A stretch of 32,941 bases of DNA, taken from NCBI GenBank assembly GCA_022600345.1, contig JAHZKP010000066.1, positions 1 through 32,941 on the forward strand, read 5' to 3'. Numbering within the stretch: position 1 is the first letter of the stretch; each line of letters begins with the position of its first letter. This stretch comes from Alphaproteobacteria bacterium (GTDB lineage Bacteria > Pseudomonadota > Alphaproteobacteria > Rhizobiales > Hyphomicrobiaceae). The position numbers were made by a program, and so were the translations under genes. Below the pieces are notes generated by a model. That model was not told where the DNA came from and searched no databases. It saw only the letters and a program-made list of their open reading frames with translations. Of the stretch, positions 21,349-22,688 are shown in pieces.

Positions 21349-22368
21349 ATGCGCGTTTTCTATGATCGCGATGCCGATCTCAATCTCATCAAGTCCAAGA
21401 AAGTAGCGATCATCGGTTATGGCTCGCAGGGTCGGGCGCATGCGCTCAACCTGAAGGATAGTGGCTGCAAGGACATCGCGGTGGCGCTGCGTCCGGGGTC
21501 GACGACGGCCAAGAAGGTCGAGGCCGACGGGCTCAAGGTAATGTCGGTTGCGGATGCAGCCAAGTGGGCCGACCTGATGATGATGGCGACGCCTGATGAA
21601 TTGCAGGCCGATATCTATAACGACCACATCGCAGACAACATCAAGGACGGGGCAGCGATTGCGTTTGCGCACGGGCTCAACGTCCACTTCTCGCTGATCG
21701 AGCCCAAGGACAGCGTCGATGTCGTGATGATTGCGCCGAAGGGCCCAGGTCATACGGTTCGCGGCGAATATGAAAAGGGCGGCGGGGTTCCCTGTCTGAT
21801 TGCTATCCACCACGATTCATCGGGCAATGCGCACGATCTGGCGCTGTCGTATGCCTGCGGTGTTGGCGGCGGGCGTTCGGGCGTCATCGAGACGACGTTC
21901 AAGGAAGAGTGCGAGACGGATTTGTTCGGTGAGCAGGCTGTGTTGTGCGGCGGACTTGTCGAATTGATCCGTGCCGGGTTCGAAACGCTGGTCGAAGACG
22001 GCTATGCACCCGAGATGGCCTACTTCGAGTGCCTGCACGAAGTGAAGCTGATCGTTGACCTGATCTATGAAGGCGGCATCGCCAACATGAACTACTCGAT
22101 TTCCAACACCGCTGAGTGGGGCGAGTACATGTCGGGCCCGCGCGTTGTGACGCCGGAAACCAAGGCGGAAATGAAGCGCATCCTGAAAGAGATCCAGACC
22201 GGGCAATTCACGTCGGAATGGATGCAGGAATGCAAAGCCGGTCAGGCCCGCTTCAAGGGGATCCGCCGGGTCAATGATGCCCACCAGATCGAAGAAGTCG
22301 GTGCCAAGCTTCGCGGCATGATGCCATGGATCAAGGACAAGGCATTGGTGGATAAAGACCGGAACTGA
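21349..22368 (+). CDS. ilvC: Ketol-acid reductoisomerase, class I
   Basis: This 339-residue class I enzyme converts acetolactate or acetohydroxybutyrate to the dihydroxy acids with NADPH and Mg2+. The Rossmann motif [12 protein letters not shown] is at about 23-34, and the cofactor-specificity loop [10 protein letters not shown], with Arg and Ser residues, fits NADPH. The Mg-binding Asp/Glu residues in the C-terminal knotted domain ([16 protein letters not shown], then [18 protein letters not shown]) are present. The start has a strong GAGGGGAG. The upstream region carries repeated CAGTTTCG motifs and a hairpin. The last 105 bp are repeated twice more immediately downstream. Confidence 0.97.
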
Positions 22369-22688
22369 GGTGGCCGGCGGCTCCATCTTTTTGGTCAACA
22401 CTGGGTAAACCCGTGTTGAGCGCCGCCGGGTCAACGACGCCCACCAGATCGAAGAAGTCGGCGCCAAGCTTCGCGGCATGATGCCATGGATCAAGGACAA
22501 GGCATTGGTGGACAAAGATCGGAACTGAGGTGGCCGGCGGCTCCATCTTTTTGGTCAACACTGGGTAAACCCGTGTTGAGCGCCGCCGGGTCAATGATGC
22601 CCACCAGATCGAAGAAGTCGGTGCCAAGCTTCGCGGCATGATGCCATGGATCAAGGACAAGGCATTGGTGGATAAAGATCGGAACTGA
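22264..22688 (+). repeat. 160-bp tandem repeat made of the ilvC 3' end plus a 55-bp spacer
   Basis: Copies start at 22264, 22424 and 22584, an exact 160-bp period. Each holds the last 34 codons and stop of ilvC (105 bp); copies one and two add an identical 55-bp spacer containing the inverted repeats CCGGCGGC/GCCGCCGG (22374-22381, 22422-22429) and CAACAC/GTGTTG. Copy three ends at its TGA (22688). Relative to the gene, copy two has five changes and copy three has one, all at synonymous third positions. The two extra copies lack a start and are not in one reading frame with the gene, because 160 is not a multiple of three. Confidence 0.95.

Follow-up and report, generated by a model that had tools for sequence, protein, structure and literature searches.

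The ilvC locus and its repeated 3' end

The window analysed here, which is the whole stretch of 32,941 nucleotides of contig JAHZKP010000066.1, comes from a 156-contig draft genome (G000) of a genus taken as Filomicrobium. Its ilvC gene, encoding a ketol-acid reductoisomerase of 339 aa, is intact and lies on the forward strand at 21349–22368 (Pfam KARI_N, 6.2e-72; KARI_C, 5.9e-64). The last 105 bp of this gene are present three times, forming a repeat that TRF and sequence comparison place at 22263–22688, with a period of 160 bp and 2.7 copies. Tail 1 (22264–22368), by comparison, is the working 3' end of the gene. It is followed by spacer 1 (22369–22423), made up of the 3' trailer and a hairpin, then by tail 2 (22424–22528), spacer 2 (22529–22583), with a corresponding hairpin at 22555–22579, and tail 3 (22584–22688), all on the forward strand. 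The two 55-bp spacers are identical. Tail 2 differs from the gene at five bases (equivalent to 22275, 22278, 22302, 22353 and 22359), and tail 3 at one (the equivalent of 22359). All five variable sites are third-position, synonymous C/T differences, and the chance that five of five variable codons would be synonymous under unconstrained mutation is 6.5e-4. The preliminary description of this DNA, which reported three tails at a 160-bp period with identical 55-bp spacers and only synonymous third-position differences, is exact in all these points. The repeated tails have no visible coding role, and the enzyme is ended by tail 1 only. At its default score, TRF reported no further tandem array in the window.

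Relatives were compared using one genome per species. At 22275 and 22302, C is found in all seven of the genus relatives (codons AAC and GGC), and at 22278 and 22353 in five of the seven (GAC at each). Tail 2 carries the common state at these four sites, and tails 1 and 3 both have the less common T. Of the eight other genus genomes, seven have a single ilvC tail, and in the last one the gene is interrupted by the end of its contig. Among 397 genomes of the order, three tails were seen only in this one, using a 36-aa query below the reach of which short copies fall. Second tails in three other genomes were rejected as candidates: the one in G275 is an ilvC end located at the edge of a contig and has 266 bp in common with the locus of the full gene, and those in G286 and G344 belong to second or broken gene copies on other contigs.

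The array is followed by a two-gene module on the same strand, consisting of a small partner protein (22768–23028, with a possible upstream start at 22708) and a PIN-like protein (23025–23498), whose fold is unconfirmed. Tail 3 is probably the ancestral gene end, because its distance to the start of the partner gene (79 bp) is close to that between ilvC and the partner gene in two genomes of another genus (81 bp in one; 70 bp in the other, or 46 bp with the upstream start). Just after tail 3, the sequence at 22689–22712 (forward strand) reads ..GGTC.TGAG.. and may be a collapsed hairpin.

The module following the last copy had been labelled as PIN, but for this label no confirmation was obtained. 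The PIN-like protein gave no Pfam match above the cut-off, no PHROGs match and no PDB sequence match below E 0.9, and its single-sequence model was poor (pLDDT 54.5) and unsuitable for a structure search. In the 13 loci examined outside this genome, a protein similar to the partner, in several of them weakly so, adjoins the PIN-like protein. A search of 103 family genomes detected the PIN-like protein in three, from two genera, and in all three the pair lies 3' of ilvC. It was not found in the other eight genomes of the genus, three of which are less than 90% complete, and outside the family 11 loci from 10 genomes have no ilvC near the pair (within ~1.5 kb on each side). The module was rejected as mobile cargo: the same pair also follows ilvC in G375 and G452, of another genus, where ilvC gives one match to the 36-aa tail. 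The association of ilvC with the pair may reflect either an ancient linkage or repeated insertion.

Hairpins and their genomic distribution

Hairpin 1 (22395–22419, forward strand) is a perfect palindrome and a member of a genome-wide family, for which there are 71 forward and 80 reverse pattern matches (palindromes may count on both strands) compared to three (1 + 2) in the reversed control. A narrower pattern gave 36 + 43 matches, and none in the control. In this respect the family is dispersed in this genome as are the palindromes of REP/RAYT systems. Some of the variants, judged by eye, keep their pairing by means of two-sided changes (GGG/CCC, CGG/CCG, GCG/CGC). The exact core of one subfamily occurs in five of nine genomes of the genus (G000, G002–G005) and in two genomes of another genus, making seven of 103 family genomes in total. 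The 55-bp spacer of the ilvC array, which contains such a hairpin, is not neutral filler.

At 20 of 91 sites of one hairpin subfamily, the duplication of flanking sequence scored above the best of 273 mismatched-pair controls. Counted and sorted by eye, six of these 20 are gene tails; the remainder consist of non-coding DNA or of hairpin units in tandem. A wider scan, covering 164 hairpin sites, was not decisive, as mismatched-pair controls reached scores of up to 75 through dispersed repeats.

Folded as DNA, the inter-tail segment of ilvC (22369–22436) has a z of -4.29, and the spacer alone -2.27. The predicted fold is one long hairpin, with an outer arm right after the stop codon (22374–22381, forward strand) that is predicted to pair with 22422–22429; the last six bases of this right outer arm are the start of tail 2. 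At ilvC the 6-bp match between arm and tail start is not significant alone (shuffle P 0.158), and of 14 cases in which spacer and tail start were compared for an inverted match, only two reach significance by themselves. The idea of an inverted match between the spacer arm and the tail start is a weak one, though such matches are associated with copies across loci. In several Hyphomicrobiales an inverted match of 7–12 bp to the ilvC tail start lies at most six bases past the stop, and at L040, L047, L053, L066, L086, L087 and L088 it tracks the codons of each species. Over ten folded segments z ranged from -1.44 to -4.49, and several of the copy-bearing spacers are unremarkable (L077, -1.44; L049, -1.69; L404, -1.66). 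Folding strength alone tells little, because two ilvC trailers that lack a copy fold equally well through their terminators (L047, -3.35; L040, -4.40).

Repeated tails at other genes of the genus

Five arrays of repeated tails were found in two genomes of the genus, this one and a single-contig relative (G003), with 3, 3, at least 3, 5 and 2 tails. A hairpin lies directly 5' of every repeated tail in all five. In this genome, apart from ilvC, there are three tails behind a hairpin at a Tad/vWA gene (404 aa; L205, 2124–2367), an array located through TRF and self-comparison, and at least three at an SNase-like gene (L398), where the array reaches the contig end; both genes were assigned by Pfam. 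These three genes are unrelated but share one hairpin family. In G003, five tails occur at a likely orthologue of the Tad/vWA gene (L315, 1807–2313) and two at a ThiS/MoaD-like gene (L404), the latter in an unselected stretch. The Tad/vWA genes of the two genomes are 73% identical over 124 aa, and they differ both in tail number (3 vs 5) and in where the tails start.

The samples scanned for repeated gene ends were partly chosen for hairpins, and comprised 622,055 bp with 2332 frame ends in this genome, and 855,013 bp with 3164 frame ends in G003. The former gave 14 matches, from which the ends of ilvC, Tad/vWA and the SNase-like gene were kept; the others are extra frames of the kept arrays, palindromes or dispersed repeats (L201, L203, L396; by eye), and tandem Uma2 genes. 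Two tandem genes of the Uma2 type are found in the window itself, at 30128–31368, and are 88% identical over 601 bp (one of them was scanned with Pfam). In G003 there were five matches, of which L404 and L315 were kept, while L411 (two frames at one place) and L298 were not counted as arrays. The reversed-sequence control gave no match in either genome. In loci of G002, G004 and G005, the tail scan gave six matches in 425, which were judged by eye to be palindrome repeats and were rejected; a decayed relic of a hairpin plus tail was recognized by eye in G002. On the minus strand of L207 (~1566–2000), the 3' end of a tRNA and the trailer behind it are partly copied ~190 bp downstream, right before a hairpin (by eye).

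The bias towards synonymous differences is not limited to ilvC. In four arrays the synonymous fraction of variable codons is 5/5 (ilvC), 3/3, 11/11 and 1/2, a total of 20 of 21 compared to 5.6 expected, and none of 200,000 simulations reached 20 of 21. In the fifth array (ThiS/MoaD-like) three of three are synonymous, a TGA/TAA stop pair included. Across all five, 23 of 24 variable codons are synonymous against 6–7 expected (P about 1.5e-12 at a neutral rate of 27%), the single counted nonsynonymous difference being Asn/His in the SNase-like array. The leftmost codons at the hairpin edge (L/F in the ThiS/MoaD-like array, S/T in the SNase-like) were omitted as hairpin sequence, and including both would give 23/26. 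The recurrence of this pattern supports the earlier suggestion that each tail once was, or came from, a functional gene end.

In the five-tail array, all four combinations of states occur at four site pairs, and from this four-gamete pattern it follows that the tails recombine. The arrays with three tails show no such pairs, nor can three sequences display them. In each of the three arrays for which a comparison of three tails was made, the closest pair was that of tails 1 and 3, and tail 2 was the odd one (tail 1–3 differences vs those of the two pairs with tail 2: 1 vs 5 and 4; 1 vs 2 and 3; 0 vs 3 and 3).

Copies of the ilvC end in other genera

The 80 ilvC loci compared are the 80 best matches in the genome collection. 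Nine of them, all from other genera, repeat the final 36 bases of ilvC at a distance of 51–135 bp downstream, with 86–94% identity, compared to at most 61% in the reversed control. One (L081) has a second copy at 159 bp (83%). The copy-bearing loci are from Mesorhizobium (4), Stappia, Methylobacterium, Aminobacter, Siculibacillus and a Rhizobiaceae MAG, and partial copies were noticed by eye at L021 and L069. The copy has a hairpin on its 5' side, with a sequence that varies from group to group (by eye; L049, L066, L077 and L080 were folded). Despite the differing hairpins, the copies start at nearly one place in ilvC (again by eye), and this near-constant start looks, on the sequences available, more site-specific than slippage predicts. 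At L049 the repeat extends 15 bp beyond the stop. In loci of the Mesorhizobium type, the hairpin motif was seen at ilvC only (six matches in 78 loci), and the spacer of this type had no plasmid match.

A tail scan of 78 of the ilvC loci gave 12 matches among 2239 frame ends, eight of them ilvC ends; the remaining rows are L021 (a frame at an ilvC copy), L070 and L073 (two rows). Tails of identical sequence entered the scan a single time, and this probably explains why only the 36-base ilvC search picked up L062. For other frame ends in these loci, about 3 of ~2160 have a match, a difference from ilvC that gives a Fisher P of 1e-11 (approximate, the criteria differing slightly). Judging from these counts, ilvC looks like a hot spot for repeated ends.

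Four of the nine copies show synonymous differences only, and five have amino-acid changes as well. Together, 12 of 24 variable codons are synonymous and 12 nonsynonymous (P 0.007 vs 25%). The preliminary description held that simple tandem duplication would be enough if nonsynonymous changes accumulated in relatives or if the spacers differed freely; the former do occur, in the five of nine copies just mentioned, but the spacers of the ilvC array are identical. In two of the nine (L048 and L066), the 33 coding bases are identical to those that end a working ilvC in a sister species, and their own gene matches them at only 31, again in keeping with tails derived from functional ends.

Alternative explanations

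The repeated tails had been thought to fit integrases that target the 3' end of a gene and carry a replacement tail. According to this explanation, tail-carrying elements inserted repeatedly at the ilvC end and then lost their cargo, leaving the tails behind. It would account for replacement tails with synonymous differences only and for the displaced original end (the distance of tail 3 being kept), and it suits copies that, in 9 of 80 ilvC loci, start at nearly one codon, vs about 3 of ~2160 other frame ends. Pfam, however, detected no integrase or transposase among 16 window proteins, including the two genes after the array (which had no match at all), and there is no remnant of an island or of cargo between the tails, where the spacers are 41–130 bp. 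An island with its cargo was ruled out, the tails being just 55 bp apart. Although the tails are functional-looking, no element carrying an ilvC tail was found in searches of phages, plasmids and viral contigs. Eight records of the phage collection match the tail (Acinetobacter 2, Staphylococcus 1, Listeria 4, Halorubrum 1), none of them alphaproteobacterial, and the Acinetobacter and Staphylococcus records carry an annotated ilvC; 19 plasmid records match at whole-gene or unannotated places; viral contigs gave no match to one exact degenerate pattern. Nor would site-specific insertion predict hairpins that differ between genera, a hairpin family common to three unrelated genes of one genome, or different tail starts at a likely orthologous Tad/vWA gene in two species, and we regard it as unlikely. 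Given the recurrence at other genes and in relatives, a recurring process of gene-end copying is a better reading than the loss of a virus or island. The hairpins might themselves be mobile, making long target-site duplications (as target-primed reverse transcription can), with the tail as the duplicated target. Tail–hairpin–tail is indeed the geometry of an element and its target duplication, the family is dispersed in the genome, and the repeat at L049 runs on beyond the stop, but target duplications begin identical and decay neutrally, which would not lead to synonymous-only differences. Furthermore, no Y1 transposase of the RAYT type (Y1_Tnp) was found in G000 or G003 (there are matches in G002 and G004), and the Mesorhizobium-type motif was seen at ilvC only, so mobility of this kind is doubtful. 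We also consider it improbable that the hairpins are gene-less mini-elements which enter the 3' ends of protein genes and supply a fresh tail that originates in another strain while displacing the old one downstream, a reading that would cover as well the spread over Hyphomicrobiales, with ilvC favoured.

Function in place, for example as competing RNA stems between the trailer and the tail starts, would have the downstream tails selected where they are. The ilvC inter-tail segment does fold well (z -4.29), and 7 of 11 copy loci, vs 10 of 66 without a copy, have an inverted match of 7 bp or more between the trailer and the start of the tail (P 0.0016; two copy loci were included by eye). Against this, an RNA role would not preserve amino acids, the copies decay in other genera, the unit lengths (160, 96, 108–110) keep no common frame, and copy-less controls fold equally well, which leaves such a function very unlikely. 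Finally, strain variation in a draft genome could have been joined by the assembly into a false array, and it is true that this genome is a 156-contig draft in which the SNase-like array reaches a contig end. The same architecture, with five tails, is nevertheless found in a single-contig genome, the sites distinguishing the ilvC copies are at most about 82 bp apart, within an ordinary read length, and the nine copy loci come from other assemblies; an artefact is highly improbable. As there are two arrays in the single-contig genome, short-read collapse is unlikely to be a general cause.

Proposed origin of the arrays

Plain duplication followed by drift is not expected to yield almost only synonymous changes in untranslated copies, so the copies are either recently imported working alleles or selected in place. 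The presence of identical spacers beside differing tails, together with mosaic tails, the odd inner tail and the sister-species matches, favours recombination with sibling alleles, acting on a hairpin-bounded duplication. Repeated recombination with a diverged allele had been put forward at the outset as one of two possibilities, and it is the better fit, given the four-gamete pattern of the five-tail array and spacers that stay identical next to differing tails. Our preferred explanation, which we hold to be probable though far from certain, is that the array is a hairpin-bounded duplication of the gene end, the copies of which were later rewritten by homologous recombination with sibling alleles.

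Such an array would begin with a gene that has a hairpin in its 3' trailer. Replication or repair synthesis may pass the hairpin and resume upstream in the gene, creating tail–hairpin–tail, and unequal exchange could then raise the number to three to five tails. Strand switching at hairpins would be the preferred first step; the point of return in the gene follows no clear rule, given the two significant inverted matches among 14. In a second step, which is in part observed, incoming ilvC DNA of sibling strains would replace tails through recombination. The outer tails, with unique flanks (the gene body and the downstream module), would be easily overwritten, and the inner tail would keep an older or other allele. 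If every tail was, until recently, the working end of some ilvC, the differences would be synonymous and the spacers alike. Displaced tails that are not refreshed would decay, a third step that is seen in other genera.

Arrays of formerly working ends would provide, within a single genome, a readable record of recombination between sibling strains at one locus. If hairpins promote the duplication of coding ends, this could explain the repeated gain of extra ilvC ends (9 of 80 loci). Repeated gene ends can also mislead searches for the attachment sites of genomic islands.

Comparison with known systems

Integrative elements such as e14 and phage 21 at icd, and SXT at prfC, occupy the 3' ends of protein genes and carry replacement tails. 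The arrays resemble them in that the gene end would have been replaced by a synonymous version and the old end moved downstream. They differ in having no visible integrase or cargo, tails that lie tens of bp apart, spacers that each contain a hairpin, and a presence at several unrelated genes. REP and BIME sequences are short dispersed palindromes that form tandem clusters and lie near gene ends, and RAYT is a Y1 transposase. The hairpins described here are likewise short and dispersed, occur in tandem clusters and are located at gene ends, but without a Y1 transposase in G000 or G003, and the repeat of the arrays includes coding DNA of the neighbouring gene. Tandem arrays in general evolve by unequal crossing-over and gene conversion, leading to copy-number variation and mosaic copies. 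Tail number also varies here and the copies are mosaic; unlike such arrays, however, the gene end alone is repeated and the copies record different working alleles.

Small inverted triplications arising from replication errors, with a full inverted copy in between, have been described in cancer and yeast genomes (PMC13334657). They have in common with the present arrays short duplicated segments around a hairpin-forming spacer, and differ from them in that the arrays lie at bacterial gene ends, contain at most a short inverted match, and show allelic synonymous differences. No description of hairpin-linked repeated gene ends was found in the open literature searched.

Other observations on palindromic elements

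Near its left end, at 217–268, the window contains two more hairpin cores of the same family, one exact and one with at most two mismatches. At L208 (13131–13408), L099 and L209, palindromes of this family are nested and in tandem, as if inserting into the loops of each other. In G003, the hairpin core CACTTCCTAAAGTCGTG has 22 exact copies, every one of them on the same strand of the 4.47-Mb contig and four in one array; of 40 20-kb stretches distributed along this contig (L291–L310, L403–L422), 35 have a positive GC skew, with no clear change of sign. Another palindromic element (TAGTGTTCCG...) is found in G004, where, at ilvC as well as at the Tad/vWA gene, its start coincides with the stop codon (L102, L312).
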